The translations under genes and the position numbers were made by a program. DNA of 64,000 bases. Source: an uncultured Tateyamaria sp. (GTDB lineage: Bacteria; Pseudomonadota; Alphaproteobacteria; Rhodobacterales; Rhodobacteraceae). The stretch is taken from assembly GCF_947503705.1 (NCBI RefSeq), contig NZ_CANNES010000011.1, forward strand, positions 1-64,000, in the 5' to 3' direction. Below the pieces are notes generated by a model. It was not told the DNA's origin. It saw only the letters and a program-made list of their open reading frames with translations, and did not search any database. Positions 16,313 through 53,617 of the stretch are shown one piece after another (positions within the stretch are counted from its first letter, which is position 1; each line of letters starts with the position of its first letter).

Positions 16313-16382
16313 AATACCGTAACACACTCAATTCCATACCAAATAGTATACCGTAAATGGGGTCACCCGTGCAAATTTGGGA

Positions 16383-29187: not shown

Positions 29188-29250
29188 AATGTTCCTCGCG
29201 TCAAAATAAGGGTCCAATTCCGCGCTAAATGGTCAGCCAATTGCGGAGCC

Positions 29251-30967: not shown

Positions 30968-33040
30968 ATGAATTACGATACCATTCAGGACAGTCTGGAT
31001 GCCATTGGTGTCTCTGCGCCCGACCTCTATCGTGCGGCTCTGTATCTGACCTACCTCCAAAACGCCGAAACCTACTTCGCCATGACCCTCGCAAAAGAGC
31101 CGGACAATGGTGGGTTGGGTGACGCGTGTTACGCTTTCGTATCCGAAGCGGTGAATGCCGCCCCACTTCTGGATCAGCTCGCTGCGCTTTTGGACGGTCT
31201 TGTGGCACCCGCCGTTCAGGGGCAGTTGGCCGGGAATGCGGATCCCCCCAAGGGTTACTATGAGACTTTTTTTGACACGACGATCTTGCCCACGGCTGCT
31301 TCCGGCAAGAGCATCACCCAAGCGGAATTCGATGCCAATGTTGCCAAATTTTTTGCGGCACAGGGCCTGACCAAGACGGCGCTGGACAAAGCTTTCAGCA
31401 ACTTCACTGTGAACATCAAAACGGCTTGCGGTCGGCTTTACGCAGATGTTGCAAACCTCAAATCGCTCTATGCGGATCAGTTTGACGATGGTTTTGCGAT
31501 CCAAGAGCTCAAATCCATCAACACCGGTATGCAGCCATTCTACAACGGCGGGCAACAGGCGTTGGAGATGGAATTGGTCGTTGCAGGCAGCCCGTCTGCC
31601 AAGTCGATCTTCAAGTCGGACCTGTTCGGTAGCACGATTTCCATCGTTTACGAGCCGCGTGATATGGAAGCTGATTGCCTGATTTGCGGCATATCGGCAG
31701 CGGCCAACAGCGTGCTGGGCGACGATTTCATCGTGCAGTCGCTGTTCGAGATTTACAACAAGGGCGTGACCGACAACAAAGATCCGGTTCTGGCCAAGTC
31801 GCTCAAACCGCTACCGACGCTGCTGATCCTGCCGGTGAACCCATCATCCAAGGCCGCAAAACCCCTGGTTGGCTCGTACGGCTATCGCCAAAGTCTGAAC
31901 ACGCCGTGGCAGTCCTTGGCCGCGCGGGCAGAACCCAGAACCCTGACAGCAGATGCCTTGATTGGCCCGGACGATGACGCGGCCACGATCATTTCGGATT
32001 TCTATCTGACACTTGGGGCCATGACGGCGCTGAGCGCGACATTTTCCATCACTGGGCTCACAAGCTCGAACATCATTTCAGCCGAACGGATTCCAACGGC
32101 AACCAATACAAACGCCGCCTTTGTAATAAGCACAGAGACGATTGTCACAGACGGGCTTGTGGCTGATGGGTCAGGTGGCATTGACGGCCAGGCATCTGCC
32201 ATTCCTGTGCTGTCGATCAACGCTGATCAATCTGGGCTGGAGACAGTGATCCGAGATTACCGCGACCCCAACAGGCTGTGGCAATCAGGAAAAAGCGGCA
32301 CCGCCGCCGTGGTAGCGCTGAAACCCACGGGTGCATCCACGCCTGTCCCGGCGGAATTGCTGATAAAGGGCTTTGATGCCGGTATCGCAATTCTCAAGGC
32401 GGTTTACACCGGTGACAGCAAGTCCGGCATCACCGATTTCATCACACGTACGGACAAGGTCGTCGTCAAAATCGCGGCTGTCTCAGCCTCTGCAACGCAA
32501 GACCTGAAAACCGCGGTGTTCACAACGCTCCCTGCGCAGCGCTCGGCTTTGACCCTTGAGCAGGCGTGCAACACGACCGTCAGTGCCAGTCTGGCGACTG
32601 CCGCTGCTGCTTACACCGCCGCAGGTGATCCAAAGGCGGATCCTGCCTTTATCGCGCTGTCCCCTTTGCTGGCTGGCAAGGCGTTGGCGAACCTGGACGA
32701 TCCGACGTTTTTTCATCAGATCGGCACATCGGACCTGCTGGGCACTGATGGCACGGCGCTTGCGATCCCAGCGACGATTACCACCTATCCCGACCCCGAA
32801 ACGCCGACAAAGGCGGGCACGCTCAAGGTCAAGGGCGCCAAAGGCATGCCCGACCGAACAACCTATTTCGACCAAGCGCCAAGTGCCGCGCGAGTGTTTG
32901 GGCCGCAGGTTGAAACGATCGGGACGGCTGCGGGGGATATCTGGACCGCAAAAGTCCGGGCCAGCATTTTCACAAGCCTGGGCCTGACGTCGGATTTTGA
33001 TCCGACGACCGTGGTCGCACAAGGTAAGGACGGCAGCTGA
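30968..33040 (+). CDS. Large protein 1 of the giant operon (690 aa)
   Basis: Start at the ATG at 30968 with GTGGGGA upstream. The N-terminal 160 residues are helical. At about 160-315 the pattern FYNGGQQALEMELVV, IVYEPRDMEADCLICG, then PTLLILPVN and GSYGYRQSLN resembles the YKPR block of LanM-type dehydratase/kinase-like domains, although Glu replaces the usual Lys; this is a by-eye similarity only. The rest is alpha/beta with a Pro/Ala-rich end. No signal peptide or transmembrane span. Its stop shares a base with the next ATG, so the two are coupled. Function unknown. Confidence 0.8.
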   Translation: MNYDTIQDSLDAIGVSAPDLYRAALYLTYLQNAETYFAMTLAKEPDNGGLGDACYAFVSEAVNAAPLLDQLAALLDGLVAPAVQGQLAGNADPPKGYYETFFDTTILPTAASGKSITQAEFDANVAKFFAAQGLTKTALDKAFSNFTVNIKTACGRLYADVANLKSLYADQFDDGFAIQELKSINTGMQPFYNGGQQALEMELVVAGSPSAKSIFKSDLFGSTISIVYEPRDMEADCLICGISAAANSVLGDDFIVQSLFEIYNKGVTDNKDPVLAKSLKPLPTLLILPVNPSSKAAKPLVGSYGYRQSLNTPWQSLAARAEPRTLTADALIGPDDDAATIISDFYLTLGAMTALSATFSITGLTSSNIISAERIPTATNTNAAFVISTETIVTDGLVADGSGGIDGQASAIPVLSINADQSGLETVIRDYRDPNRLWQSGKSGTAAVVALKPTGASTPVPAELLIKGFDAGIAILKAVYTGDSKSGITDFITRTDKVVVKIAAVSASATQDLKTAVFTTLPAQRSALTLEQACNTTVSASLATAAAAYTAAGDPKADPAFIALSPLLAGKALANLDDPTFFHQIGTSDLLGTDGTALAIPATITTYPDPETPTKAGTLKVKGAKGMPDRTTYFDQAPSAARVFGPQVETIGTAAGDIWTAKVRASIFTSLGLTSDFDPTTVVAQGKDGS

Positions 33041-36000
33041 TGAGCACGATTGAAACCATCATCAAAGCCTTCAAGGCGTTTCCGACAGACGGCAGCGAGA
33101 TTGCCCTGAATGCAAAGACATTTGATCTGGATTTCACCAACGATGTATTTGAGTTCTTGCTGTTGCAAGACACGCTGACCTTCAAAACGACAACTGTGAC
33201 GGTGACTGGCGAAACGTCCGCAACCCTCAAGGGAACGACAAGTGTTTACGGCTACGACGCCGTGCCCTGTACGTTGAGCTTTGAGGTAAAGGACGCGCTG
33301 GTTGTGGCCAAGATCACAAGCGATCTGGGCAAAACCGCCAATATCCAACTGCCGGTTCTGTTCTGGATTACGACAACCGGACTGAGTTTTGCAGGAACCA
33401 TGACCGAGACCAAAGGGCTGCCTACTTTCGGTTTTGCCGGTGGGCTTGACCTGGGCAATGACGCATCGGCCCCGGTTGCCATCGACTATCAATCGGCCGG
33501 TAATTGGGACCTGGGCATTGCCAAGGATGAAAAGACAAATATCAGCGGCAGTCAGGTTGCCGCAATTTTGGGCGGCGAGGCGCTCAGCAGTCTGCTGCCT
33601 GAAAGCCTGGAAAAGGAACTGGATACGTTCGCAGTCTCCAGCATCGACGCTTCGTTCAATTCCAAGACCCATTTCCTATCGTACTTCAATGTCGGGTTTG
33701 AAGTTGTCGAAGGCTGGGACATCACCTCTGATCTGTCTCTTGAGCCGGGAATGGGCCTGTCCTTTACCCTGTCCGAGAAAAAGATCGAGCTGCCGAAACT
33801 GGGCGCAACGGCCCAAGATGTTGCCGCAACAAGCGACAAGAATATCGCAGCACAGGTCACCGGTACGCTCAAACTGGGCGGGGTCGACGTTCCGCTGATC
33901 CTGGCCGCAGCGTTCAACGATGTTGCGACGTGGGAGTTCGGTGTTCAGGCGGGCAAGACTGTAACGATCCCTTCACTCAAGGACGTTCTGTTGCTGGGCG
34001 GCGATCAGGCTTTTGTCGACAGTTTGCCGGCGCAAATCTCGACCCTGCCCAGTATCGAGATTGACCGCTTGTTCGTTATTTTCCAACCGTCGAAAAAGCT
34101 GATCAACGAGGTCAGTTTCAAGGTGCAGACGGCCTCAACCTGGCAAGTGCTGCCCGGCTATTTCGAGCTGACAAAGGTCAAGCTGGATTTCGACATCACC
34201 GACGTCAACACGCCCAAAGACCGCAAGGTGGTGGGCGAGGCCTATGCCGGGTTCGACATTGGCGACGTTCCGTTCTTTTGCCAGATCAAAAACACGAAAA
34301 AGGATCAGGATTGGGTCATTACCGGCGGTTTGGTCAAAGGTAGCAAACTGAACTTTACCGCCATTGCCGCATCCCTGTTCAATGGCGAATTGACGATCCC
34401 GAAGGATGCACCGCAGATTGCCTTTGACAAGGCAAACCTTGAAGTCGTGCCGGAGAAGAAGACCTTTGAAATCAGCGCAGGGTCGGACGACGCCTGGGAC
34501 ATTATTACAGGCAAGCTGGCGATCGAAACGCTGTCCATTGATTTTTCAAGAAAGCCGGAAAAGAAGAAAGCGGGCGAAGCGAGCCAGTTTGAAGCAAAGG
34601 CTGACGCGCCGGACAAGGCCGATCCGCCCTCCCCAACGACCTATACCTATTCGGGACAGATTTCAGGTACCTTGACGATTGGTGGGGTCGCGGTTTCGTT
34701 GAGTGCCGTGCTGAACAAAACGCCTGACAGCGGCATTGATTTTGAAGGCAGCACCGGCGACCAGAAGATCCCCTTTGGAAATTGGCTGCAGGATTTTGCC
34801 TCGTTCTTTGGGCCTGTAGAATTGCCGCATTGGGTCACGGAGCTGACCCTGTCCGACATTGCCGTCACGTATAATTCCAAGACGAAAGACTTCAGCTTTG
34901 CCATCCAACTATCGGACAATGACGCGCCAGGACTGATCATCGCCCTGTCCATCGAAATGACGCACAAGGACAAGGACTGGACCAAAGTCATCACAACGAA
35001 ACTGACCTACAAGGACGACGACGTTGATCTGCTGTTCTCGCTAGCCTTTACGACCTCAGAGGCCAAGGGCGTGAAAACATCGAACACCCGCGCGGTCTGG
35101 GGCGGGGACAATCCGCCAAGCCTTGCGACCTTCCTGATCTTCATGGGCAAAACCCTGAAGCTTGATGTCGATTTCCCGCAGGCGGTCAATTGGGACGCCA
35201 CGCTGTCCAGGATGATCATCGAGGGCAAGCAAGTCGGTACAAAGCCGCAAACCATCGAGGCCGCCGGGCAATTCGATCTCAAGATCGACGGCAACACCGA
35301 TTGGAGCCTGTTCTTCTCCTATACCAACGAGACCAGTTTCGAGGACGGCGGCGATAAGGAAAGCGCGGGCAAGCTGACGGTCTACACAAGTGATGACGCG
35401 GAAAAGAGCGCCCCCGAGGCTGACCCGACACCCGAAGCCGCGCCTTATGTCTTTGGTATCGCGCTGAGTGGGCCGATGAACCTGACGGACTTGCCCTTGG
35501 TTGGCTCGATCCCCGGCATCGATGCCTACAACATCGACAAGTTGGGGTTCTATTATACCAACGCCGCGTTCAAGGATGACAAAGCCAAACTGAACTTTAC
35601 CATTCCTGATCTGGATAGCGTGGGGACAGGCAAAGCCGGATATAGCAAGGCGCAGTTGGACAAGCCGAAATTCAACCTGTTGGCCCTGTTCGCAAAAGAC
35701 GCCAAAGGGGGCGGGGGTGACAAGGCGGCGCTGGCGGCGCCGGACATGCCCGAGGCCAGCAGTGCCAGCGGGGACAGCGACGGGAGCATGAGCCTCGGCA
35801 CACCGACTCCAGACGCGACGGCGGATCAACCCGGCTTTGCCAAGACGCAGTCATCGACCGACGCGCCGATTGCGTGGCTTGCACTGAATAAATCCATTGG
35901 CCCGGTATCGCTTGAAAAGGTCGGGCTCAGCTATTCTGCACCACCAAAGGGCGAAGACGGCGAGCTTGGCATCTTTGGTGTGTACCTCAATGGTGGGCTG

Positions 36001-38247
36001 TCAATTGCCAGTTTTTCGATGGCGCTGGACGGGCTTGGTATCACCTTCCCGCTGCCCAAACCTGGCGGTTCAATCAAAGATCCCATTTCCCAAATCGATT
36101 TCCATTTGAACGGTCTGTTCCTCGATCTTGAAGAGCCGGGGTTCAAGATTGCCGGAGGCTTCATCAAGATCCCGGGCGATACGCCAGATATGATCGGGCA
36201 ATTGACGGTGGATGCCGGCCCGTTTGGCCTGGACGCTTACGGCGGTTTTGCGGGTGATTTGTCGGACCCGTCTGTGTTTATCTTCCTGCATCTGACGGCG
36301 CCTTTGGGCGGTCCACCGTTCTTCTTTGTGGATGGTGTTTCAGGTGGGTTCGGGCTGAACCGCGATTTTGTCCTGCCGACGTTTGATCAGTTGGGCAACT
36401 ATCCGTTGCTGCCGCAAAGCCCCGCAATCCCGACTGCCGCGGATATGGGTGGAAAATCGGCGGCTGACAAGCTCAAGACGATGCAAACCGCGCTGTTGAG
36501 CCTGGCCAAATATTTCCCCGTAAAGGAAGGCCAGTATTGGGTGGCGGCCGGTCTCGACATCACGTCTTTCGAGATGATCAAGGTCTCGGTCATCTTGTCG
36601 GTATCCTTTGGCAAAGACCTTCAGGTCGCCGTGATTGGCAGTGCAGGCATGTCCTTGCCCGTCAATGTCGGCACCGATCCGATGGCCTATATCCAGATCA
36701 ATTTCCTGGTTTCCTATTCGTCCTCCAACAGTCTTGTGTCTGTGATCGGCGTCATCACGCCCTCGTCGTTTATTCTGACGAAAGAGATCAAGCTGTCTGG
36801 CGGCTTTGCCTTCTATCTCTGGCTTGATGGGCCCAATTCGGGTGATTTCGTCCTAACCATCGGCGGGTACAGCCCATTTTACAACAAACCGGCACTGTAT
36901 CCTGACGTGCCGCGGATGAGCCTGTCTGCCAGTATTGGTATCCTGTCGATGAAGGGTGAAAGTTATTTTGCCCTCGTGCCAAGTGCGCTGATGGCAGGGA
37001 TCGACGTGAAGGCAACGGCAGACCTTGGTCCCATTTCAGCCTGGTTCCACGCCAGCGCGGATTTCTTTATCGGCTGGAAACCCTTTACCTACCACATTCA
37101 GATCGGCATCGCGCTGGGCGCGTCGCTGACGCTTGATATCGGATTTGTCACGATCCGCATCACGATCCATGTGGGTGTCGGGCTCGACATCTGGGGGCCT
37201 GAATTCGGTGGCCGGGCCATGGTCGACTTGTCAATCGTGTCCTTTGCCATCGACTTTGGCAAACAAAAGCAAGAGGCCCCTGTTCTGACCTGGTCAGAAT
37301 TCATCGATTTCCTGCCCAGCAAGACCCAGAAGGAAAAGGAAAAAGCGGCCCCCTTGCGCATGGCACCGATGATGGCATTCGCGCTGATGGAAGAGCCGAA
37401 TGTAGCCGTCGCTGCCCCGGCAGCGGACACTGGCCCCAAAACGTTGATTTCGGTCGAAGTGGCGCGTGGCAAGCTTGCCAAGGATCAAGCTGCTGCCGAT
37501 GCATCCGGCGTCGCGTGGGTGGTGAACGGCAATGATTTTGCGATCCGTACCCATGCCAGCGCGCCGTCCAATGCGATCAACTTCAACAACGAACCGCTGC
37601 CACAAGACACTGCGCGTTATTTGCTGCCCGGCAACCTCAGACAGCAATTCGAAGAGCGTCCCGAACTCATCGGCAAGTTGCCTTATATCATCGATCCCAA
37701 ACCGCCCGAAGGTGCGCCGATTTGGTACGATCTTGAGGTTGGCGTCAAACCCAGCAATCTGACCGACCTGACCTCGACCCAGATCATCACCCTTAAGAAT
37801 GAGGCGGGTGATGACCAGGCAGTGATGCTCCAATTGGTGAAATCCGGTGTCGCCTCGGCGCTCTGGGGTTCTGATGGCGATACATCCACGTCCGACAGCG
37901 GGCTGATGGCGGGCGCTGTGGTCGGGATTGAGATGCTGCCCAACATCTATTTCCCCAAACGCACGTCTTACATTCAGTATTACTACCTGGTGTTCTCGCC
38001 CAACGACGTTTTTATCGCCCAAGAAGTGGCCCCCAGCATCGATACCGGCGCTTATCCCGACCCCGGGAAAATCATTGACAGCATGAAGGATGGCACAGCG
38101 TTTTCCAGCACTGAAACCGCCCGCACCGACGTCGTTGATGTCCTCGGCACGCTGGGCTTTGACGACTTGGCGCCAAAGAACTCCGGCGCGCTGAGCACCC
38201 AGGATTACGTGCAATCGGCCGAGCTGATGCACATGACGGCGGCCTGA
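33040..38247 (+). CDS. Giant beta-repeat protein 2 (1735 aa), DUF6603-like C-terminal half
   Basis: The first 900 residues are several roughly 130-170-residue beta-rich units with a shared design: a GTLxxGGVxVxL strand pair, then an IP-containing segment, then a LxxLxVxYNxKTKxFSF-like strand (for example at about residues 265-360 and 545-630). An Ala/Pro linker (about 870-945) leads to a section with GGPPFFFVDGVSGGFGLNRD (about 1090-1110), IGGYSPFYNKPALYPDVPR (about 1275) and IWGPEFGGRAMVDLS (about 1385), which recalls the DUF6603 family known from bacteria and fungi, function unknown. No signal peptide, few Cys. The repetitive beta pattern suggests an elongated structure. It starts in a one-base overlap with protein 1. 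Confidence 0.8.
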   Translation: MSTIETIIKAFKAFPTDGSEIALNAKTFDLDFTNDVFEFLLLQDTLTFKTTTVTVTGETSATLKGTTSVYGYDAVPCTLSFEVKDALVVAKITSDLGKTANIQLPVLFWITTTGLSFAGTMTETKGLPTFGFAGGLDLGNDASAPVAIDYQSAGNWDLGIAKDEKTNISGSQVAAILGGEALSSLLPESLEKELDTFAVSSIDASFNSKTHFLSYFNVGFEVVEGWDITSDLSLEPGMGLSFTLSEKKIELPKLGATAQDVAATSDKNIAAQVTGTLKLGGVDVPLILAAAFNDVATWEFGVQAGKTVTIPSLKDVLLLGGDQAFVDSLPAQISTLPSIEIDRLFVIFQPSKKLINEVSFKVQTASTWQVLPGYFELTKVKLDFDITDVNTPKDRKVVGEAYAGFDIGDVPFFCQIKNTKKDQDWVITGGLVKGSKLNFTAIAASLFNGELTIPKDAPQIAFDKANLEVVPEKKTFEISAGSDDAWDIITGKLAIETLSIDFSRKPEKKKAGEASQFEAKADAPDKADPPSPTTYTYSGQISGTLTIGGVAVSLSAVLNKTPDSGIDFEGSTGDQKIPFGNWLQDFASFFGPVELPHWVTELTLSDIAVTYNSKTKDFSFAIQLSDNDAPGLIIALSIEMTHKDKDWTKVITTKLTYKDDDVDLLFSLAFTTSEAKGVKTSNTRAVWGGDNPPSLATFLIFMGKTLKLDVDFPQAVNWDATLSRMIIEGKQVGTKPQTIEAAGQFDLKIDGNTDWSLFFSYTNETSFEDGGDKESAGKLTVYTSDDAEKSAPEADPTPEAAPYVFGIALSGPMNLTDLPLVGSIPGIDAYNIDKLGFYYTNAAFKDDKAKLNFTIPDLDSVGTGKAGYSKAQLDKPKFNLLALFAKDAKGGGGDKAALAAPDMPEASSASGDSDGSMSLGTPTPDATADQPGFAKTQSSTDAPIAWLALNKSIGPVSLEKVGLSYSAPPKGEDGELGIFGVYLNGGLSIASFSMALDGLGITFPLPKPGGSIKDPISQIDFHLNGLFLDLEEPGFKIAGGFIKIPGDTPDMIGQLTVDAGPFGLDAYGGFAGDLSDPSVFIFLHLTAPLGGPPFFFVDGVSGGFGLNRDFVLPTFDQLGNYPLLPQSPAIPTAADMGGKSAADKLKTMQTALLSLAKYFPVKEGQYWVAAGLDITSFEMIKVSVILSVSFGKDLQVAVIGSAGMSLPVNVGTDPMAYIQINFLVSYSSSNSLVSVIGVITPSSFILTKEIKLSGGFAFYLWLDGPNSGDFVLTIGGYSPFYNKPALYPDVPRMSLSASIGILSMKGESYFALVPSALMAGIDVKATADLGPISAWFHASADFFIGWKPFTYHIQIGIALGASLTLDIGFVTIRITIHVGVGLDIWGPEFGGRAMVDLSIVSFAIDFGKQKQEAPVLTWSEFIDFLPSKTQKEKEKAAPLRMAPMMAFALMEEPNVAVAAPAADTGPKTLISVEVARGKLAKDQAAADASGVAWVVNGNDFAIRTHASAPSNAINFNNEPLPQDTARYLLPGNLRQQFEERPELIGKLPYIIDPKPPEGAPIWYDLEVGVKPSNLTDLTSTQIITLKNEAGDDQAVMLQLVKSGVASALWGSDGDTSTSDSGLMAGAVVGIEMLPNIYFPKRTSYIQYYYLVFSPNDVFIAQEVAPSIDTGAYPDPGKIIDSMKDGTAFSSTETARTDVVDVLGTLGFDDLAPKNSGALSTQDYVQSAELMHMTAA

Positions 38248-38293
38248 TCCTGTGTGTCAGGGTTTTGCATGAATATTGAAAGCGATTGAGAGC

Positions 38294-40018
38294 ATGAAAG
38301 AAAACAAAGCCCCGGTGACCACCGACGACTCGCCTTTGTTCCAGGTGCGTGCGTCTTTCGTCCAGCACAGTCTGCCAGGGCTTGAGGCTGGCAAATATAC
38401 GATCACTGCCCAGCAACAGCTTGACCACGCGGACAAAACATCCGCAACGGATGGCCCTTTGCCAGTGGTCGAGCAAGTGTTCGGGGTCGAGGGGGAAAAG
38501 TACACGATCTCACAAGCCTCCGTGCACAGCAGATATCCACCGAACGAAGTACAGGGCGAGTTTTCGACCAGTCTGCCGCAGATCATCTTTCAGGATGCGA
38601 CCAAGTTGCCATGGATCAGGTCGCCCTATTATCGCGACGAACCCGTCATCCAGACGCATACCTATGATGTGGACGGCAAGCCGCAGGAATATGACGACGA
38701 CAAGGCGACGTGGCTGTTTGTGATGTCGCTGAATACCACCGATTTTGAAGGCGTCTCCCCGCGTGGTCTTGTCCGGACAGGGACGGTGGCGGACTTGATC
38801 CCGGATACGATGACGGTGCGCAGCAACACGTCCTCCACGCCGATTCCGGGCAGAATGCCTGCCAAGGACATGTATTCGATATTCTCTTATGTCTTTGAGG
38901 ATGGCAAAAAAACCAAGAAACCGGCGGGCAGTGAATTGGACCCCGGCATTGGCCACGATGGCACCGACGCCATCAAATTCATTGATATCCCCATCGCGTT
39001 GTTCCAGACACTGGCCCCGTCGATGCAAGACTTGCAACTCATGGCGCATGTGCGCTCGGTCAAGCTGGACAACAAGGCGCTGGCTGACGGCAAAGTCATT
39101 GACGCGGAAGGCGAATATGCCGTGGTCATGGGCAACCGGTTGCCGCAATCCCTGCCTGCGGCGCAAGCCGTGCCGCCGGTGCCTGGAAAACCCGCACCGG
39201 GGACCAATGACGTTTTTGTTGTGTCCCTCGAAAAAATGGAATGCGCGCTGAGGGGGTATGCAAAGCCCAGCTATTTCAGCGAGAACATAGTTGACAACGC
39301 CAACGGCCATGTGCGGCTCGTGGTTTTGAACCAATGGAGCTTTACCTCGTACGACGACACAAGTTTTGAATTCAAACTCATCCTGGGAAGCTTGAACGAC
39401 CGCACGGTTGATCCAAAACACCCCAGTGAAGGCTCGCAGGACAACCCGCACATGCGGTTGCCGAACCCGCCCCACTTTACAAGCCCGACCGAGGCACAGA
39501 AAGTGGCAGAGCACATGTTGTCTTTGGGCTATGTGCCCATGAACCACCTCACGCGCAAACCCGATGTCAGCGTTGAGCCCAAAGAGCCCATTCAAACCGT
39601 GTCCTGGTATCGCGGGCCGCTCGCCCCTTTCGCGGTCGAGCCCGATCACAATGGCCCGCTGGGTGGCGGGGCTGTGGGAAGCGATTTGTCCAAAATGGTT
39701 TATTCCGCCGACAAGCTGCTGCGCTTTGACCCCACGGTTGGCATGTACGACACCAGCTATGCCGCCGCTTGGCAGCTTGGCCGCTTGCTGGCCCTGCAAG
39801 ACAAGAGTTTTTCGGTGCCATACTACCAATGGCAACGCAGTCGTGCCTTTGCTTTCCGAATGTCGATCGAGAACGCCCTGGTGGGCGATGATTTCGCGGA
39901 CCTCAAAGCAGCCTCTCAGAACCTGATCCAGTCCCAGAGCAAATCTGGCGCGCCCGACAACGCCTTGTTCAGGTCGGCCGTGAATTTCTTTGTCCAGATG
40001 TCAGTAGAGGGAGAATAA
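38294..40018 (+). CDS. Large protein 3 of the giant operon (574 aa)
   Basis: I use the ATG at 38294; a TTG at 38276 gives six more residues. Beta-rich throughout, with recognisable but unnamed family landmarks: VSWYRGPLAPFAVEP at about 435, then LLRFDPTVGMYDTSYAAAWQLGRLLALQDKSFSV-like text around 480-515 ending in a helical tail. I associate that segment from memory with uncharacterised proteins that sit beside the families of proteins 4 and 5 in other bacteria. No signal peptide. It ends one base before the start of protein 4. Function unknown. Confidence 0.75.
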   Translation: MKENKAPVTTDDSPLFQVRASFVQHSLPGLEAGKYTITAQQQLDHADKTSATDGPLPVVEQVFGVEGEKYTISQASVHSRYPPNEVQGEFSTSLPQIIFQDATKLPWIRSPYYRDEPVIQTHTYDVDGKPQEYDDDKATWLFVMSLNTTDFEGVSPRGLVRTGTVADLIPDTMTVRSNTSSTPIPGRMPAKDMYSIFSYVFEDGKKTKKPAGSELDPGIGHDGTDAIKFIDIPIALFQTLAPSMQDLQLMAHVRSVKLDNKALADGKVIDAEGEYAVVMGNRLPQSLPAAQAVPPVPGKPAPGTNDVFVVSLEKMECALRGYAKPSYFSENIVDNANGHVRLVVLNQWSFTSYDDTSFEFKLILGSLNDRTVDPKHPSEGSQDNPHMRLPNPPHFTSPTEAQKVAEHMLSLGYVPMNHLTRKPDVSVEPKEPIQTVSWYRGPLAPFAVEPDHNGPLGGGAVGSDLSKMVYSADKLLRFDPTVGMYDTSYAAAWQLGRLLALQDKSFSVPYYQWQRSRAFAFRMSIENALVGDDFADLKAASQNLIQSQSKSGAPDNALFRSAVNFFVQMSVEGE

Positions 40019-40019
40019 C

Positions 40020-41048: not shown

Positions 41049-44000
41049 ACATCATTGTTCCCATTCACGTCGAAGCGCTGCGCGTGACAACCAACACGGC
41101 GCAGCAATCCAAAACCGCGCTTTACCAGTTTGACAAGCTGGGCAAGGTTGCAACCTCAGCCGACAGCGGGATGATCGCTGCAGAAAACTTTGCGACCTCG
41201 CAAACCTATTTGCGGAACCAACCCGGCATTCACCTGCATTGGTCCATCCCGCGTGCCTATACCAAGGGCCTTCAGGATCAAGAAACCGGCGCGCTCAAAT
41301 ACCCCGTTGTACCCAACCGCTGGATCGTTATCCGCACATTGAAAAACAACAAACCGGGGTCGCTGCCTGCCACCGATACGCATATGTGGGTGTTGGAGAG
41401 CGACGCGCATTCGCTAGATGATGGCGAAAAGACGCTTGAGAAATCTGTCGCGCCGTGGATGGACAATGCGGGGGCCTTGCAGGGCCTTCAGGGCAATGTG
41501 CTTGGACGCAAATTGGATGCCACAAATGGGTGGCATGAGCCGAACGGCCAGATGCATACCCTTGCGGCCAAAGTCGGGGATGGAAATCACGGTTATCTGG
41601 GCAAGCTTTTTCAGGCACCCTATGGCTCTGGCGAGACGTTCACCGCTTATATGCCCAGTTCGGGCAATATTCTGGGCATTTATGACAAGCTGGATGACTA
41701 TTTCCAGAACCTGCCCAATTGGACGGTCGATGCGGATTTGTCGGTGTCTTATACCGTTATGGGCTGGGTCAACGACATATCATCGGACGCCTGCCATATC
41801 ATTCTCAACAATGCGCTGACCGCCTATGGTGCGTTGCCGGAACGGGACAAACCGACCCTCGCGGAATACATCGAACAGGTGATGGGCGAGGATCTGAAAT
41901 GGTCGTTGTCGGATTATTCCTCGCTGACCGCAGCGTCTATCCCCCAGACCCAAGCGATCATGAACGGGATTGTGTCGGGTATTACCTGGAATACCTCGTC
42001 ACAATCGGGAGTGACCTATCCCACAGCCCCGCCCAAAAATCAGGACATCAAGGTCAGCGTCGGCAGCAACACCGCCGATGCGTTGTCGGCCTATCTGAAC
42101 GGTACGGTGGCCGATCCGTTCTTCAATCCGGACGCGCCCGAGGTGGATCATCAGGTCGAATGGTTGCTCAATGCCTTGCAGTTTGACCAACTGCCAAAGC
42201 TGGACGCAGGCACCAAAGGGGTCGGCCAATTACAGGAGTTTCTGCACACTACCACCTTTGCCGGCTTTCCGGGGGGGAACGTCTGGTCCGTGCGGCAAGA
42301 CAAGGACAAGACCCAATCGCAAGGGCAGGGGAACAACAACGAAGTTACGCTGCCCGCCTATCTTGGCAAACTTCTGGCCGAATTGAACGGTGCACAGATC
42401 GAGCTTGATACTGGCAAAGACAAAATTGCCAACGAGCGCAAGCAGCTGTTTCTTGACTGGTCTTATCATGCAGGCCAGTTGCAGACCAATGTGTTTGGGT
42501 CCGCCAATGAGAACCTGAACACCGATGTGACCGGCGCGTTCCTGGTTGATGGTCTGCTGCACTATTTCCCGTCGCTTTTGGACAGCGGCAGCTACAATAG
42601 CTTTACCAAACCTGTAGCGCCATACGCGGCAAAACTGGATAGTTTCAAGATCGCCCTGCCTGCGGATGCCCATCCCGACCGGGCCAGCGACATTGCCAGC
42701 TACACGTTTCTGGAACAATTGAACCCTGCCGCCCAGACCTTTGGAACAGCGCTTCAGGAGATGCTGGTGGATGCCGACGCCATCACCGAAGAGTTACTGC
42801 CGCTGGGCATCGCCAGCCTGAAAGAGGTCGCGGCCCTGGTGGAATTGGCAAGCCTCGTGCCGGCGGGCAGCCCAACGGCACAGTCGCAGATCGCTGACTT
42901 GGTGAAACAGGCGCTGGTCAGCTTGGACACGGCCAGCATGGCAATCGAAAAGGCGTCGACCTATGGCAATGCGCTGGTCGACAGCGAGGCCGGGATTGAC
43001 AGTTTGATTGCGCAGGCGACCACTGCGCAAAACGGCATCGCCGCGCTGATCACGGATTTCAAAGGGTACTTTTCTGTCCATGACGTGCCAGAGGCATTGC
43101 CCTTGGCGGGGGGCAAAGCCTTTACTGACAAAGTGCAGGCCGAGGATGTTCTGACCCTCTTCAACTATACAGCTGACGACAAGGGCTTTCCCGGGGTGGA
43201 AACCCTGCTCGACAGCTATAACGGCTATAGCGGCCAGTCTGCCTTTGTCATCGATACGAGCAAGGCCGCATATTACATGGCCTGCGCGCATATCTATGCG
43301 ATCCAGTCGCTGGTGCCTTTCATTGTGACCTGCGCCTATTACCTTCAGTTTTGCCTTCAGGAGTTGAACGAGGCCTATAGCGACGCCGAGGAAATGGTGA
43401 CGAAACTGAAGGCTGCGAAAACGGCCCTGACCCTCAGCACGATCAGCGACGCAATCACCGATCTCAACACCATTGCCACAGGCACTTTGCCATCAATCCA
43501 GTCCGATCTTGAGGCCGAGACACCCCGCCTTGCGGACGCTTTGGCCAAGGTCACAGAGCTGTTGGAAATCCAGAATTCCGGTTTGCCAAGCGATCTGTCG
43601 GATCTGAGCGGTCAGAACTGGTTGAATGTTCTGGAAGATATGCGGGCCGCAAAGGCGATTGCCTTTGCGCGGATGCCTGCGGAACAAATCGTAGGCATCC
43701 TTAATCAGTGTCTCTACGGCAAGGTCGGCAAGCAATTTGAACTTGTATCCGCGCCCGGGCAAATGTTTGCCTCTCCCAACGAGCCTGTGATCCTGATGGC
43801 GCAGGATGCGACCGAGGAAACGGTGCTTGAGCCTTTTACGCGCAACGGGCGCGCCGAGGTTATCCCTTGCCGACTGCCCAACGAATTGGTGGCTGCGGCC
43901 ACGCCGCCGACCTTTCCGCCCTCGATCACCTCCATTGCGACGTCCATTGTTCCGGCCCAGGCTGGGATGAGCACCGTGTTCCAGCAATTGGCAGAAGAAG

Positions 44001-46126
44001 GTGTGCTGTTGACGCCGGAGTTGTCCTCGCCTGTTTCCGCCGCGGATTTGAAGGCGGCGGCAAACGCCAACGAAACGCTGCACATGGACAAGTTGAAACA
44101 TGTAGAGTTGAACGATGCCCCAACCGGGCTGACGGGCAAGTTGCCCTACTACGTCGCCTATAATTGGCGCGATGACAAAGACCCGTTCATGCCACTGTTT
44201 ATCTGGTGGACAGCCACCTACACCTTTTCGAACGCATTTGATTTTGCGGACAAAAAAGTTGGGCCGGACTTCCTGGATCAGTTTGAATTGGGCCAGTACC
44301 AAGTTGAAATGCACCTCAAGTCTTCGGCGGCGGGGAATTTCTCTAGCACCAGCGGTCAGAGCAATCATTTTGGCCTGCAGGGCGTCATCGCGATGTCGTC
44401 AAACCCGACTTACGTTCTGTGCGACCAAATCGCGAAGTACTGCGCCACCTACCTCAACTATGACCCAAAGGTTGCGCCGGTACAGGAACCGAATGACCCG
44501 GATTATGATGTAAAGCTGCTCTTTCACACGTCCTATATGAAATACAAAAGCATGCGGATGCTCAGCCAGGGTCTGAGCGGGTTCAATCCCAGCATGATCC
44601 AGCGCGTTCAGGAAATGCAGTTGCCGGTGAACATTCCGACCTCCTGGACTGATGAAGGCTATCCGCTTTCCAGTTTCTGGCAAACACAATTCCTGCACAA
44701 CCAATCCCAAGGCTGGCCGGTGAATTGGAACAACGAGGCCCCGAACCCCAGCGCGCTGAAGACAAATGACAGCTATGTCGATTTCAACCCGCTGCGGGCG
44801 GGGGTGATGAAGATCGACAAGATCCAATTGGTGGATGCTTTCGGGCGCTATATCGACTTGGCGGAGCCCAATCCGGCTTATGTCTCTGACACCATGATTG
44901 ACCCCGAACTTGCCAAGGAAATCTATCTGCCGCCCCGTCTGACCCAGCCCACGCGCGTGAACATGGACTGGGTTGCCGCCGAAACCTCTGCGGTTACAGG
45001 CAGCTTTGTCGAACCGGGCAGCGCCCAGCCTGCGGTTTCGCCGATTTGTGGCTGGATATGGCCCAACCATCTGGACAATACGCTGGCGCTTTATGATGCG
45101 CGTGGCATACCTGTCGGCTCGCTTGGGTTGCAGGACACAACAAATCGCGATGACGGTCCTGTCGTTCATTGGTTCCCCGTTCCCGGCGAAACAACCAGCG
45201 TCGGTGTTTCGAACCGAGACCAAATGGCCGCCTATTTGAAGGACAAGAGTGTCAACAGCGTCTTTATCGATGTTCTGTCTGATTTCCTGTTCAGCGACGA
45301 AACCAAGTCAACGGGGCAGAATTTCGCCGAAGTCCTTATTTTACTTGAGGAATCTCAAAGCTTTATCGTCACCAATTCACTTCAGGTTGACCAAGACCTG
45401 AGCCTGTTTGTCGGCCGCCCGTTGGTCGTGGCACAGGCGCAAATCGGTCTGGAGTCCAAAGGTACGCTCAACCGGGCGGGTGATTTGAGCACGTTCCCGA
45501 CCTGGAACAAGAACGGGCCACAATTCACCATCAGCGATGCCTCCTACATCCCCTACCAACAGGATAATTTTAATGACGGCGGCATTTCTGACCTAAAGGT
45601 GCCCACACGCATCGGCACGGCCCAGGTGAAACTGCCCAGCGGCAAATCATTCCCCTATTTCGACGATGGGGTCGTAGGGTACTTCGTCGGGGGTGACTTT
45701 GGTACGCTTTTCACGCCTGTTGAGATGAACGCCACGAGCAAGATTAAGTCTCTTGCCAGTAGCGACAGCATCTACCCGGTGCAGATCACGCCGAATGGCG
45801 ATGTAGAGACAGTGACATTCATCATGGACCCGCGCGCCTCGGTGCATGCGACCACCGGTATCCTTCCGGCCCTTGGCATCAAAATCCCCGAAGACCAGTT
45901 CAACGACGTTCTGCGTCAGATCGAGATTACCTTCCTGACCGCGCCTGTGCTGACGCGTGGTGATGTGCCTGAATTGCCGATCCCGAAAGAGCAGGGCTTT
46001 GATTGGGGCTGGGTGAACACAATGGCTGAGTACCCAATCGAGGGAACCCAGAACTTCCAACAGGCCAAGTTCCCCGAAACGCCGCAAAGCCTGGTTGACG
46101 GTTGGCTCAAGCTTAAGCGTCAATAA
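41045..46126 (+). CDS. Giant protein 5 (1693 aa)
   Basis: The N-terminus has GIHLHWSIPRAYTKGLQDQE and VPNRWIVIRTLKN (about 60-105), a signature shared with uncharacterised large proteins of other phyla (from memory). Residues about 540-900 are long helices with coiled-coil character (KLKAAKTALTLSTISDAITD, LADALAKVTELLEIQ). The last 700 are beta-rich, with LPYYVAYNWRDDKDPFMPLFIWW at about 1030 and ANPxYVSD-type loops. No signal peptide or membrane anchor, few Cys. It is the largest plus-strand partner of the 1735-residue protein. A rod-and-domain layout fits a structural or scaffold role, not an enzyme; this is inference. Confidence 0.8.
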   Translation: MNIIVPIHVEALRVTTNTAQQSKTALYQFDKLGKVATSADSGMIAAENFATSQTYLRNQPGIHLHWSIPRAYTKGLQDQETGALKYPVVPNRWIVIRTLKNNKPGSLPATDTHMWVLESDAHSLDDGEKTLEKSVAPWMDNAGALQGLQGNVLGRKLDATNGWHEPNGQMHTLAAKVGDGNHGYLGKLFQAPYGSGETFTAYMPSSGNILGIYDKLDDYFQNLPNWTVDADLSVSYTVMGWVNDISSDACHIILNNALTAYGALPERDKPTLAEYIEQVMGEDLKWSLSDYSSLTAASIPQTQAIMNGIVSGITWNTSSQSGVTYPTAPPKNQDIKVSVGSNTADALSAYLNGTVADPFFNPDAPEVDHQVEWLLNALQFDQLPKLDAGTKGVGQLQEFLHTTTFAGFPGGNVWSVRQDKDKTQSQGQGNNNEVTLPAYLGKLLAELNGAQIELDTGKDKIANERKQLFLDWSYHAGQLQTNVFGSANENLNTDVTGAFLVDGLLHYFPSLLDSGSYNSFTKPVAPYAAKLDSFKIALPADAHPDRASDIASYTFLEQLNPAAQTFGTALQEMLVDADAITEELLPLGIASLKEVAALVELASLVPAGSPTAQSQIADLVKQALVSLDTASMAIEKASTYGNALVDSEAGIDSLIAQATTAQNGIAALITDFKGYFSVHDVPEALPLAGGKAFTDKVQAEDVLTLFNYTADDKGFPGVETLLDSYNGYSGQSAFVIDTSKAAYYMACAHIYAIQSLVPFIVTCAYYLQFCLQELNEAYSDAEEMVTKLKAAKTALTLSTISDAITDLNTIATGTLPSIQSDLEAETPRLADALAKVTELLEIQNSGLPSDLSDLSGQNWLNVLEDMRAAKAIAFARMPAEQIVGILNQCLYGKVGKQFELVSAPGQMFASPNEPVILMAQDATEETVLEPFTRNGRAEVIPCRLPNELVAAATPPTFPPSITSIATSIVPAQAGMSTVFQQLAEEGVLLTPELSSPVSAADLKAAANANETLHMDKLKHVELNDAPTGLTGKLPYYVAYNWRDDKDPFMPLFIWWTATYTFSNAFDFADKKVGPDFLDQFELGQYQVEMHLKSSAAGNFSSTSGQSNHFGLQGVIAMSSNPTYVLCDQIAKYCATYLNYDPKVAPVQEPNDPDYDVKLLFHTSYMKYKSMRMLSQGLSGFNPSMIQRVQEMQLPVNIPTSWTDEGYPLSSFWQTQFLHNQSQGWPVNWNNEAPNPSALKTNDSYVDFNPLRAGVMKIDKIQLVDAFGRYIDLAEPNPAYVSDTMIDPELAKEIYLPPRLTQPTRVNMDWVAAETSAVTGSFVEPGSAQPAVSPICGWIWPNHLDNTLALYDARGIPVGSLGLQDTTNRDDGPVVHWFPVPGETTSVGVSNRDQMAAYLKDKSVNSVFIDVLSDFLFSDETKSTGQNFAEVLILLEESQSFIVTNSLQVDQDLSLFVGRPLVVAQAQIGLESKGTLNRAGDLSTFPTWNKNGPQFTISDASYIPYQQDNFNDGGISDLKVPTRIGTAQVKLPSGKSFPYFDDGVVGYFVGGDFGTLFTPVEMNATSKIKSLASSDSIYPVQITPNGDVETVTFIMDPRASVHATTGILPALGIKIPEDQFNDVLRQIEITFLTAPVLTRGDVPELPIPKEQGFDWGWVNTMAEYPIEGTQNFQQAKFPETPQSLVDGWLKLKRQ

Positions 46127-46204
46127 ACAAAGTGGTTGGGCGCCAGATCCGAATTGGCGCCCGGCTCAACCGAAGCCCACGATCATTTCAGCAGGTCAGA
46201 CCCG

Positions 46205-48676
46205 ATGGCAACATACCCCCTTATTCTCACGAACCCCGCCATCACCAAGGGAGACAAGGCTGTCGTTTTCACCGGTGACGGCAAACCCAATTCATTGGAA
46301 CTGACGGTTCAGAACAAGTCGGGGTTTCAGCAGAAATTTACCCCTGACAAACCGCTGATACTGGATTTTCCAAGCACCATCATTTCCTACGACAATATCA
46401 AGAAATTGACGGTGGATGCCGCCTGGAAGATCACGGCACCAGACCCGATCAAAGAAGGGACGAGCAACCCTTATAGTATCACGCTGACCCCTGTCAGTAC
46501 GATTACCTTTGACGTGAACGCCAAGATAACGATTACGCTGGCGGAAATACTGCCGACAAAGGCGGGAAACGGCCCCCTCAAACTCAGCTATCCGTTTGCC
46601 TTGGGCACAATGATCTCGACTGCCACGCTGACGTGCAACGCTTTGCCCAAGCCAGACAATCAAACGCTCTTGGGGCCGATCTATGCCGTTTCCGTTGATG
46701 TCGAAGTTGAAGGCAATTCGGGTGGCACCCACAAAACGAACAAGATCGAACCGAGCGTGAAACCGATCAACGGCCGCATCAAGGAAACCAGCATTGTTGA
46801 AAACCGCGTCACACTGATGTTCGCGTTTCACGGCGAAAACAACAAGGCAAAGCCGACAAAGGGGTACACGCCGTCCACAGAACTTATCGAGAAACAGGGC
46901 ACTTCAGCGCCGCGCTTTACAATCCGTTTTCCCTATTCGAATGCAGCGGCTCAGATTGATCAGATCTATACCCTGACCGACAATTCCAAAAGATCCGACG
47001 ATGGCTATTTGAGCCCGACAAGTGGGCGCAATATCGACATTTCTCTGAGTTCGACGGTAAAGGGTGTGATGAAAAACACCTGGTGGACGATCCTGCCGCC
47101 GGATGTAAGCGATGACGCCACAGCCCCGGTATGGACGGTTGAGCCGACCGGTGCAAACCAGCATTTTCTGACCTCCATTGACCATATCGGTGGCGGGCCG
47201 GGCCCGACCCTGAATATCTATCTGAGTAACATCTGCACAACCCTCGATATTTTTCCGCCCACACCGCAAACTGCGGTGTTTGTCCAAAGCCTGGATTTTC
47301 CAGGCTTCAACGATCAAATGACCGTGCACCTGATCGAAAAGGACCCGGTCCAAAAGACCAAGTCATTCAGTGCCGCGATACAAAACCCATCCGCCACGCC
47401 CAGTCTGCAATTGGATTGGCTGACCCAAAACACGACGACCGTCGAGATCACCGGTGTCCAAAGCAACAGTGCCGTTCAAGGTGTAGGCGCGGCGCTGGAC
47501 CCATCTGGGCCTCTGACAGTGCCCATCTCTGTCGATGCACCGGTTTTGTGCGAATACACGCTGACGTCCTATAACGCAGGACGCAGTCCACAATCGAATG
47601 CATCCGGCAACGGAAAGATATCTGCCACCTGGGCGATCAACCCCGCTGTCGGGACAGAGATGTTCGGGAACACGACCACTGTCGCCACCTCTCCGGATGG
47701 TGGGTTGATCTACATGCCCGGACAGGGCGCGGATGTCGGCACACCGCTTTATGTCTTCAATACGAGCGATCTGTCGGTCAGCACCAAGAAAGCCTTTGAT
47801 AACAACCTGTCTGCCGTCAACGTGGCACCGTCGCCTGATGCTAAAAATGTTTATGTCGTCCTCAAAAATCAGCAATATCAGGCGTCACAGATCGTCCAAT
47901 TGACAGCGGGCAGTCTGGCCGTTGCCAACACATTTACCGGTCTGCCCGGCGGGATCATGACTGACGGCGGATCACTGGTCGTTTCGTCGGACAGCAAGCA
48001 TCTTGCCTATAGCAGTTACACGCCGGGATCAGGCTCGCCGCGTGTGATGTATCTTGATTGCGAGTCATCCTGGACGAGTTACACGCCGCCAACGGTGAAC
48101 GTCGCCACCATGAAAAACCGCGGGCTGGCCGTGACTTCAGAGGCGATATTTCATAGCGATACCGGCGGGCTGGGATATATCGGTCTGACGCCAACAATCG
48201 CCACATCCTCCAAGACTTTGACTCTGAATGTGGGTGGCATCGCGTACGAGTCTGGTCCGATGAGCCTGTCGCCAGACGGGTCACGCCTGGCCATCATGGC
48301 ATTGCCACAAGGGCGCACGTCGGGAGGCAAGGTGTTTTTTGTGGATACCAACAACATAACCCTTGAAACGCTGTCGATTGACACACCGATCAGCTTCAAG
48401 AACGGTTTCATCCTCCCCGGGCTCACGTTCTCCGTTGATGGCAAATACCTCTTTGTCTCAGGCTCAGGCCCCAGCGGCTCAGCTGCCCTTTATACCTATT
48501 CCACGTCGACGGGTCTCGCGCTTGCGCCGGTGCAATCCTCAACCGACCAATTTGGGCCCGTATCGGCACAGCCGACGGGTGTCGGGGTGTTCGTATTGAA
48601 CACAGATTCGTCCCAGATGGGGCGCATATTGCGCCTGAACCCGACATTTGCGCCGTTTAGCAATCCAAATTCCTGA
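46205..48676 (+). CDS. Large protein 6: beta-sandwich region plus beta-propeller
   Basis: 823 residues from the ATG at 46205 (MATYPLILTNPAITKGD); a 23-residue upstream extension in frame is less convincing. The first 480 residues are beta-rich, with Ig-like strand patterns. From about 480 to the end the chain shows propeller blades with SPDG-type turns (TVATSPDGGLIYMPGQG, NVAPSPDAKNVYVVLKN, MSLSPDGSRLAIMALPQG, LTFSVDGKYLFVSGSG), five or six in all. Such a propeller usually binds partners or ligands. No signal peptide. It follows protein 5 by 78 nt and is followed by a hairpin before the kinase gene. Confidence 0.8.
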   Translation: MATYPLILTNPAITKGDKAVVFTGDGKPNSLELTVQNKSGFQQKFTPDKPLILDFPSTIISYDNIKKLTVDAAWKITAPDPIKEGTSNPYSITLTPVSTITFDVNAKITITLAEILPTKAGNGPLKLSYPFALGTMISTATLTCNALPKPDNQTLLGPIYAVSVDVEVEGNSGGTHKTNKIEPSVKPINGRIKETSIVENRVTLMFAFHGENNKAKPTKGYTPSTELIEKQGTSAPRFTIRFPYSNAAAQIDQIYTLTDNSKRSDDGYLSPTSGRNIDISLSSTVKGVMKNTWWTILPPDVSDDATAPVWTVEPTGANQHFLTSIDHIGGGPGPTLNIYLSNICTTLDIFPPTPQTAVFVQSLDFPGFNDQMTVHLIEKDPVQKTKSFSAAIQNPSATPSLQLDWLTQNTTTVEITGVQSNSAVQGVGAALDPSGPLTVPISVDAPVLCEYTLTSYNAGRSPQSNASGNGKISATWAINPAVGTEMFGNTTTVATSPDGGLIYMPGQGADVGTPLYVFNTSDLSVSTKKAFDNNLSAVNVAPSPDAKNVYVVLKNQQYQASQIVQLTAGSLAVANTFTGLPGGIMTDGGSLVVSSDSKHLAYSSYTPGSGSPRVMYLDCESSWTSYTPPTVNVATMKNRGLAVTSEAIFHSDTGGLGYIGLTPTIATSSKTLTLNVGGIAYESGPMSLSPDGSRLAIMALPQGRTSGGKVFFVDTNNITLETLSIDTPISFKNGFILPGLTFSVDGKYLFVSGSGPSGSAALYTYSTSTGLALAPVQSSTDQFGPVSAQPTGVGVFVLNTDSSQMGRILRLNPTFAPFSNPNS

Positions 48677-48677
48677 T

Positions 48678-48718
48678 CTCGGGGCGGTTGTCGTCATGCT
48701 GGCGCATCTGGCCCCGAG
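48678..48718 (+). terminator. Possible terminator-like hairpin before the kinase
   Basis: CTCGGGGC (48678-48685) pairs with GCCCCGAG (48711-48718) around a 25-nt loop, with no T-run. It may reduce read-through from the giant operon into the kinase gene. Confidence 0.35.
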
Positions 48719-48734
48719 CGAAGCGTCCTGACGC

Positions 48735-49538
48735 ATGTCACGCACAACCAAGATCGCCGAAGGAAGCTTTGCCGTTGTTTATGACATCGGCGCGTCCCAG
48801 GTGTTGAAACGTTTCAAGGATAGAACTTCGGCGGACGCGGTCCGCTACGAAGCGATGATGTCCTCACATGCGTGTGACGCAGGCATACCCACGCCCGCAA
48901 TTCGCGCGGCCGATCCCGAGGGCGGGACCCTGACCTTTGACAAGATCGACGGCCCGACCCTTGTGAATGTTGTCAAAGACAAACCCTGGACAGTCTTTTG
49001 GGCCGCGCGTGAAATGGCGCGTCTTTTTGCCCGCATCCACCGGGTGGATGCCAATGCGTTTGGCGCCAAAAGCTTGCAAGATCAGATTGCCGCACAAATT
49101 CAGAGTAACGACGAAATTCCGAGCAGGGTTCAAGGGGGGCTACTGGCGGCACTGACAGCCATGGCGTCAATGCCGCGTTTGTGCCACTTCGACTTTCATC
49201 CCGAAAACGTCATGGTAGATGACAAGGGTATTCAAGTCATAGATTGGGGCGCTGCAAAGCAGGGGCATCCGATGCTCGACATCACCCAAACCGTTGTTAT
49301 GAACCGGGTGGATCGGATATTGCAGGACCCGGGCAATCCGCCGGTCATTGTCGTCATGTTGCTGCGCAAACTCTATATTGAAGCCTTCCTGTGCTTTTAT
49401 GCGCGGTTTTCGGAGGACTTTACGTATCGCCAGGTCAGACGCGACGTTGCCAGGCTTACCAAGCCCATTGCTGCGGCCCGGCTGGCCAGTGCAAAACCTT
49501 ACGAGACCGTAAAACTGAAACGGATACTTGGGCGCTGA
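48735..49538 (+). CDS. Small kinase of the aminoglycoside-phosphotransferase fold
   Basis: 267 residues. The N-lobe starts with FAVVYDIGASQVLKRFKD (nucleotide loop and the ATP-binding Lys). The catalytic loop is LCHFDFHPENVMV, with the general-base Asp and metal-binding Asn, and the metal-binding IDWGAAKQGHPMLDI follows. This fold phosphorylates small molecules, lipids or proteins; the substrate cannot be read. It lies 58 nt after the propeller protein, same strand, and is the last gene of the block. Resistance is not implied. No strong ribosome-binding site is visible before the ATG. Confidence 0.85.
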   Translation: MSRTTKIAEGSFAVVYDIGASQVLKRFKDRTSADAVRYEAMMSSHACDAGIPTPAIRAADPEGGTLTFDKIDGPTLVNVVKDKPWTVFWAAREMARLFARIHRVDANAFGAKSLQDQIAAQIQSNDEIPSRVQGGLLAALTAMASMPRLCHFDFHPENVMVDDKGIQVIDWGAAKQGHPMLDITQTVVMNRVDRILQDPGNPPVIVVMLLRKLYIEAFLCFYARFSEDFTYRQVRRDVARLTKPIAAARLASAKPYETVKLKRILGR

Positions 49539-52657: not shown

Positions 52658-52754
52658 AATGGTTCTCCTTAAATGGCATTTGGGATCAAATTTTCTCTGT
52701 CTCGCTGCAACAGAATCAAACCTTACCCTCACGTCAACGACGAGCAAACACGTT

Positions 52755-52764
52755 TTACGAGAAT
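52755..52764. promoter_or_regulatory. TTACGAGAAT element upstream of LodA-like gene
   Basis: This ten-base word also occurs at 53579-53588, with an 8/10 match at 53558-53567. It lies in the gap between the iclR stop and the LodA start and may be a binding site of the adjacent IclR regulator. Confidence 0.4.
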
Positions 52765-52785
52765 TTCGCGGGGCGGAAACCCGGG

Positions 52786-53547: not shown

Positions 53548-53557
53548 ATTTTTACCT

Positions 53558-53588: not shown

Positions 53589-53617
53589 AGGAATATGATC
53601 GCAAGGGAGGATCGGTG

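Follow-up and report, generated by a model that had tools for sequence, protein, structure and literature searches.

A seven-gene operon of an uncultured Tateyamaria sp. carries one copy of a widespread, unnamed gene cassette that may specify a payload-delivery assembly

The 64,000-nucleotide stretch of DNA analyzed in this study (the window; contig NZ_CANNES010000011.1 of assembly GCF_947503705.1, from an uncultured Tateyamaria sp.) harbors an operon of seven plus-strand genes at positions 30968 to 49538. An earlier reading of the letters alone, here termed the sequence-only reading, had described these genes as tightly spaced, and direct inspection of the junctions bears this out, all seven open reading frames opening where they were said to and specifying proteins of 690, 1735, 574, 342, 1693, 823, and 267 amino acids. 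Genes 1 (30968 to 33040) and 2 (33040 to 38247) have in common the base A of TGATG at position 33040; a gap of 46 nucleotides precedes gene 3 (38294 to 40018), which lies one base ahead of gene 4 (40020 to 41048); gene 4 overlaps gene 5 (41045 to 46126) by four bases; and gaps of 78 and 58 nucleotides lie ahead of the ATG of gene 6 (46205 to 48676) and ahead of gene 7 (48735 to 49538), respectively. The genome comprises 4.43 Mb in 31 contigs, the contig listed for protein 5 being 122,370 bases long, and the closest relatives listed for proteins 1 and 5, at 75% and 81% identity, belong to a Thalassovita metagenome-assembled genome.

Protein 2 is a member of the DUF6603 family (PF20248), its domain (35884 to 37359) scoring 409.5 bits against a curated cut-off of 27 (E = 2.5e-122), and it represents the long type of this family, with approximately 950 amino acids ahead of the domain. 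Proteins 3 and 5 returned no match from Pfam or NCBIfam, protein 4 returned a chance-level match only, and the Pfam and NCBIfam traces in proteins 1 and 6 were weak. No function is assigned to DUF6603, and the literature searched contains no paper that names DUF6603, PF20248, or IPR046538.

A search with protein 5 listed 59 proteins, the query included, and a profile derived from a 21-row protein 5 alignment (20 rows from this list and a paralogue of the same genome) located 265 coding sites in GTDB species genomes, 80 of which form the basis of the locus counts given below. These 80 loci cover Pseudomonadota, Bacteroidota, Cyanobacteria, Actinomycetota, Bacillota, Chloroflexota, Acidobacteriota, Myxococcota, Nitrospirota, and SAR324, that is, about ten phyla, Gram-positives included, as assigned by us from the names of the locus records. 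Gene clustering, coupled with profile searches of six-frame segments, defined three core families: F1, represented by protein 2 and its DUF6603 domain; F2, represented by proteins 3 and 4, which are fused into a single protein in many other loci; and F0, represented by protein 5. Where at least 9.3 kb was available on each side of F0 (46 of the 80 loci), F1 was present in 46/46 and F2 in 44/46, the two loci without F2 (L037 and L087) stopping within or at F1. F1 was also present in 21 of the 34 shorter loci, while 12 of the 13 that appeared to be without it end at most 3 kb from F0 on one side or both, and the thirteenth (L041, with flanks of 8.3 and 8.7 kb) carries at its end a 202-amino-acid piece that clusters with F1. 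Core matches are same-stranded within each of the 80 loci, trivially so for the nine in which F0 stands alone, with F1 preceding F0 in 40 loci and F0 preceding F1 in 27.

Proteins 2, 3 plus 4, and 5 thus form the conserved core of a widespread cassette which, as far as searched, is without a name and of which the operon is one copy. The same genes recur in the same order in other organisms, as the gene-order comparison proposed in the sequence-only reading revealed, and, given this recurrence, the seven-gene arrangement is more than chance. That reading would have been abandoned had homologues occurred singly and far apart; in the loci examined, the DUF6603 protein accompanied F0 in every untruncated case. 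The further contention that all seven genes make up one system holds insofar as a conserved multiprotein system is evident; only genes 2 to 5 are core, genes 1, 6, and 7 being variable or accessory.

DUF6603 was detected in 3/385 Alphaproteobacteria and 9/398 Pseudomonadota, counts which both include the present genome, and F0 was detected in 3/385 Alphaproteobacteria, the third of which (G284; a 44-position match, E = 2.4e-5) is probably a chance match. When seven of the eight other DUF6603-bearing Pseudomonadota neighborhoods were examined in the reverse direction, F0 was found near F1 in 6/7; F1 and F2 were seen in the seventh (G635), as they were within the 4.6-kb locus of the eighth genome (G619). 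F1, F2, and F0 are all present in G262, and giant F1 proteins of about 3250 to 3400 amino acids are encoded by five Pseudomonadota genomes (L117 to L121). The present genome itself harbors a second, diverged cassette (contig C1, approximately 969190 to 982850; L005, 4190 to 17850), which comprises an F1 of 1764 amino acids, an F2 in two parts, an F0 of 1339 amino acids, and an arm protein that aligns with Kelch-type arms, and in which the uniform rule described below found no upstream payload gene. A Paenibacillus polymyxa plasmid (L009) carries the cassette downstream of a baseplate-V gene (approximately 9 kb away) and of a nuclease gene (8 kb away), and DUF4280 is found in the same region.

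In contrast to the constant core, the gene located directly before F1 varies among loci and belongs to unrelated families, some of them toxin-like enzymes. Twenty-one such upstream proteins were scanned with Pfam, five of which exceeded a curated enzyme cut-off (a lipase 3, a Bd3614-like/cytidine deaminase, a trypsin, and two metallo-beta-lactamase-fold [MBL] proteins), and five of which remained below it (two MBL and three DNase-I-like EEP proteins). An alignment of seven MBL upstream proteins matched a competence protein (E = 3.4e-21) and ComEC (E = 1.4e-20), the domain concerned being one which we take to be a nuclease; the N, E, and SDH motifs are retained in four EEP-like upstream proteins; and a group without a credible family (F13) displays conserved His, Cys, and Asn motifs which, read by eye, resemble those of an HNH nuclease. 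The presence of an upstream gene appears to be tied to the length of F1. Under a uniform rule that retained 61 loci and excluded 12 (five with F1 cut, four with N stretches, and three with the F1 start outside the locus), an upstream gene of at least 260 amino acids was present in 25/35 loci with an F1 of at least 1180 amino acids and in 0/26 with a shorter F1 (Fisher's exact test, 3e-9); in two long-F1 loci (L011 and L072), the rule fails to pick up an upstream gene that similarity reveals. Stretches of basic residues resembling a nuclear localization signal (NLS) were observed in 8/21 upstream proteins, against 2.55 expected from shuffled sequences (the protein 1 family left out), compared with 3/21 F0, 0/21 F1, 1/16 F2, and 0/12 arm (F3) proteins of the same loci and with 11/105 other genes, for which 10.1 were expected.

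In the window, this variable slot is occupied by protein 1, in which the sequence-only reading had seen no obvious catalytic site. It is, however, a distant relative of DUF4135, which is the LanM dehydratase domain (DUF4135, E = 0.0032 and 17.1 bits against a cut-off of 29; LanM, 9.4 bits against a cut-off of 304), and the homologue search returned at least four proteins among the matches listed, one of them 99% identical. Relatives of protein 1 in Yoonia and Ferrimonas also sit in this slot. The Ferrimonas protein matches DUF4135 (E = 2.7e-25) and, below the 304-bit cut-off, LanM (E = 4.7e-22, 77.6 bits), while the Yoonia protein has no NCBIfam match; in an alignment, the LanM kinase-type motifs are kept in the Ferrimonas copy and not in those of the window or of Yoonia. 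Protein 1, as judged from these profile matches, is best described as a lineage-specific occupant of the variable slot with a recognizable, distant family, and, because the catalytic motifs of LanM are not kept, it is probably inactive as a LanM-type enzyme or active in another role.

On the other side of the core, protein 6 occupies a slot which in other loci is filled by proteins with LamG, Gp10_C, Collar, S74, or Kelch domains, or with similarity to tail-collar fibers, the Collar match lying below the cut-off in L021 and above it in L045; two actinobacterial arms and the Ferrimonas arm are without a Pfam match. Residues 17 to 392 of protein 6 (46253 to 47380) are homologous to the N-terminal part of fiber-like proteins of cyanobacterial and other cassettes (hhalign, 97.8%, E = 7.8e-13), whereas the C termini are unlike, with a propeller-type repeat in protein 6 (PD40, PF07676, at 47981 to 48049; E = 0.0012, below the cut-off) and VGIGT-type repeats with S74 in the cyanobacterial-type proteins. 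Because the actinobacterial arms could not be linked to protein 6 by profile comparison, the combination of a constant anchor and a variable tip is demonstrated in only two arm families. Protein 7, predicted from the letters alone to be a kinase, is indeed a member of the APH family (PF01636, E = 8.9e-19), and its family (F9) is also found near cassettes of Yoonia, Ferrimonas, Algoriphagus, and Fulvivirga. It is considered accessory because its Yoonia and Ferrimonas counterparts are encoded on the opposite strand.

The operon is preceded, on the minus strand, by two glycine-rich, collagen-like proteins of 443 (27886 to 29217) and 452 (29251 to 30609) amino acids, possible accessories which are related to each other. 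The Taibaiella cassette (L053) is adjoined by a similar-looking pair, and the Embleya cassette by a relative of one member of that pair; the window pair has no blastp match to the Taibaiella or Embleya proteins. Further left, likewise on the minus strand, are a polyketide synthase (PKS) with the Pfam architecture AMP ligase-KS-AT-KR-ACP-TE (20578 to 27789; family F19, present in L065 and L078) and an aspartyl/asparaginyl hydroxylase (19826 to 20581; Pfam, E = 4.9e-44; family F20, in the same two Bacteroidota cassettes), a pair that, with an APH-type kinase, adjoins the Algoriphagus and Fulvivirga cassettes. Genes for a coupling protein, a resolvase, a relaxase, and NikA-like proteins, with a weak RAQPRD trace, occupy positions 11367 to 19546 and perhaps represent an integrative or mobilizable element. 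Directly after the operon (49635 to 53604, minus strand) lie genes for a LodA-like lysine oxidase, a flavoprotein, and an IclR regulator. Elsewhere, family F7, in which one member read by eye combines an ATPase-like N terminus with WD40-like repeats, occurs near eight cassettes, five of them cyanobacterial (L024, L032, L033, L035, L047, L057, L070, and L073). The same genome carries, on another contig, a contractile injection locus (G000:C13:40000-59900; L129) with genes for two sheath proteins, a gp19 tube, a CIS tube, and Baseplate J, so that this locus and the cassette are not linked.

Structure predictions were obtained for relatives of two core proteins. A relative of protein 5 (L092) yielded a confident prediction (pTM 0.81) whose fold has no match in the PDB, and the DUF6603 fold, modeled from an F1 relative (L079), has ApoB100 as its top fold match; DUF6603 is, according to this model, a beta-rich, porin- or ApoB-like protein. 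No signal-peptide-like N terminus was recognized among the window proteins by simple hydropathy, the sole test applied, in agreement with what had been noted from the sequence alone. The accompanying suggestion of a cytoplasmic or cell-surface assembly, as opposed to an enzyme pathway, is borne out in that the system comprises multiple proteins and no metabolic pathway; a purely cytoplasmic assembly is, in our judgement, unlikely because of the tail-fiber-like, LamG, and Kelch modules in the protein 6 position and the enzyme-like upstream genes.

Comparison of loci thus shows a conserved core, an arm that is modular in two families, and a variable upstream gene tied to F1 length. It is proposed, with a probability of roughly one-half, that the operon represents a widespread bacterial payload-delivery assembly as yet undescribed, and we infer from its anatomy the formation of a particle, the housing of a payload, the passage of a membrane, and the target. 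F1, F2, and F0 would constitute the conserved body, and protein 6 an exchangeable, target-binding arm with its constant anchor and variable tip. The product of the gene before DUF6603 would represent the exchangeable payload, docked on or housed by the long N-terminal region of F1. Because the proteins seem to be without signal peptides, the particle may be released by lysis or by an unknown route. Once the arm had bound the target cell, the DUF6603 beta-sheet, which is partly amphipathic, would contact or traverse the membrane of that cell and admit the enzyme, the targets being more likely eukaryotic (grazers or fungi) than bacterial. In the copy in the window, the cargo is perhaps inactive or repurposed, as the slot holds a degenerate relative of the LanM dehydratase. 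A more specific version is advanced only tentatively and is, in our view, rather less than an even prospect: a hitherto unknown class of released bacterial nanoparticles, independent of phage tails and Tc toxins and distributed over about ten phyla, in which a DUF6603 beta-sheet body, as both container and membrane gate, and a fold-novel F0 hub carry exchangeable enzymes, several of them with NLS-like stretches, into eukaryotic cells.

Several observations weigh against this proposal. The enzyme cut-off was passed by only 5/21 upstream proteins, five further matches being weak and 11 proteins having no credible family, and the occupant of the slot in the window is itself without LanM catalytic motifs. 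The 260-amino-acid limit was set after the small genes had been seen, and the loci and species are related; at a limit of 150 amino acids, the contrast is weaker (25/35 long-F1 against 6/26 short-F1 loci; p = 3e-4), although the small genes ahead of short F1, which have no assigned function, may be something else. No upstream gene was identified by the uniform rule in 10/35 long-F1 loci, among them the second cassette of the present genome. Since the NLS pattern was spotted by eye before testing, and several of the eight are weak patterns, the excess is suggestive only. The F1 model is moderate (pTM 0.62), with Foldseek TM-scores of 0.04 to 0.25 for the six best matches, its porin-like matches superpose poorly (root-mean-square deviation of 12 to 16 Å for most rows), and 6/34 of its strands are individually amphipathic (p < 0.05). 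Furthermore, G237 carries DUF6603 without a detected F0 and with only a weakly F2-like protein in a divergent locus; this distant version (L106 and L107) specifies large proteins of 595, 946, 589, 1716, and 964 amino acids, the last of which is the weakly F2-like one. Finally, the ATPase-WD40-type F7 protein near eight loci would also be explained by a sensing system.

Four other explanations were weighed. A cell-surface or matrix structure (a giant adhesin, an S-layer-like array, or a biofilm component), to which the upstream enzymes would be tethered as tools rather than delivered as toxins, would account for the Kelch, LamG, and propeller-type modules of the adhesin-like arms and for the collagen-like neighbors, and the pore activity of DUF6603 is only predicted; this explanation is nevertheless unlikely, as the window proteins have no signal-like N termini by hydropathy and the upstream families, which follow F1 length, include a deaminase and ComEC-like proteins without an obvious surface role. 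It is less probable still that F1, F2, and F0 form an intracellular conflict system which senses an invader and frees the upstream effector enzyme within its own cell. The patchy distribution of the cassette would suit such a role, as would F7, F10 (a family near five loci that looks Ser/Thr-kinase-like in the one member read by eye), and an MBL-type upstream protein (L059) that matches LmuA (E = 9.8e-19) and RTasMBL of PADLOC; proteins 2 to 6, however, have no match to PADLOC models at E = 0.01, and the fiber, collar, and LamG modules fit binding outside the cell. Similarly slim are the prospects of a lipid or secondary-metabolite carrier tied to the neighboring PKS, in which DUF6603 would bind lipid as an ApoB-like sheet and export the product: the ApoB100 match, the PKS, hydroxylase, and kinase common to the Algoriphagus and Fulvivirga cassettes, and a ketoacyl-synthase-like protein adjoining the G262 cassette would be in keeping with it, but the PKS family is present in three of the clustered loci, and the changing upstream enzymes are left unexplained. 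A structural module derived from a phage or mobile element, as the Collar, S74, and Gp10_C modules and the relaxase and coupling-protein genes to the left of the operon might suggest, is very improbable, given that 50,697 phage records contain no match to protein 2, viral contigs contain none to the protein 5 alignment, and proteins 1 to 6 have no credible PHROG match (best E = 0.014).

Among known systems, no named tail or toxin system was matched by the proteins of the operon, as the sequence-only reading had anticipated, and the phage comparisons above likewise set it apart from a phage tail structure. An outer-membrane porin would be a closed transmembrane barrel with an export signal; the F1 model gave porin-like matches of poor superposition, and no signal-like N terminus was seen in the window copy by hydropathy. 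Protein 1 resembles LanM through its Ferrimonas relative, which matches both the DUF4135 and LanM profiles; the window copy differs from a LanM lanthipeptide synthetase in that it scores below the cut-offs and has no catalytic motifs and no cyclase domain match in Pfam or NCBIfam. The placement of unrelated upstream genes before a constant F1-F2-F0 core may be compared with the variable toxin and constant carrier of polymorphic toxin systems, the toxicity of the upstream proteins being only putative. Closest in operation are the extracellular contractile injection systems (eCIS), the Tc toxins, and the umbrella particles, with none of which the cassette has a tested component in common; among the entries listed, searches of the literature with descriptive terms brought up only other systems. 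The eCIS are specified by loci scattered over environmental phyla and have fiber tips and exchangeable toxic effectors (PMC8213781), features which the cassette, known here from its genes alone, appears to share. It differs in that its core consists of three unrelated proteins, whereas an eCIS operon has 15 to 28 genes. No eCIS sheath, tube, baseplate, spike, terminator, or AAA domain was found in the seven operon proteins, nor was the eCIS core, DUF4255 included, found in these and the 19 neighboring window proteins scanned. Tc toxins are very large proteins whose body houses a variable toxic polypeptide (PMC7861908), much as is proposed here, except that the payload of the cassette is a separate gene; the seven operon proteins have no Pfam or NCBIfam match to the TcB mid domains or the RHS core, and a scan for TcA_TcB_BD (PF18276) gave no match in the genome and likewise none in control genomes. 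The umbrella toxin particles of Streptomyces, which are portrayed as secreted complexes of toxin domains and lectins (PMC11062931 and PMC13274773), are likened to the cassette by description only. A gene set so large, conserved, and widespread that is yet without a name is rare, and its comparative anatomy of a constant body, a swappable tip, and a swappable upstream gene leads to a specific, testable functional prediction. If this prediction is correct, the cassette would specify a machine for delivery that has no relation to phage tails, Tc toxins, or known secretion systems, and it would account together for a DUF family and for several giant hypothetical proteins.

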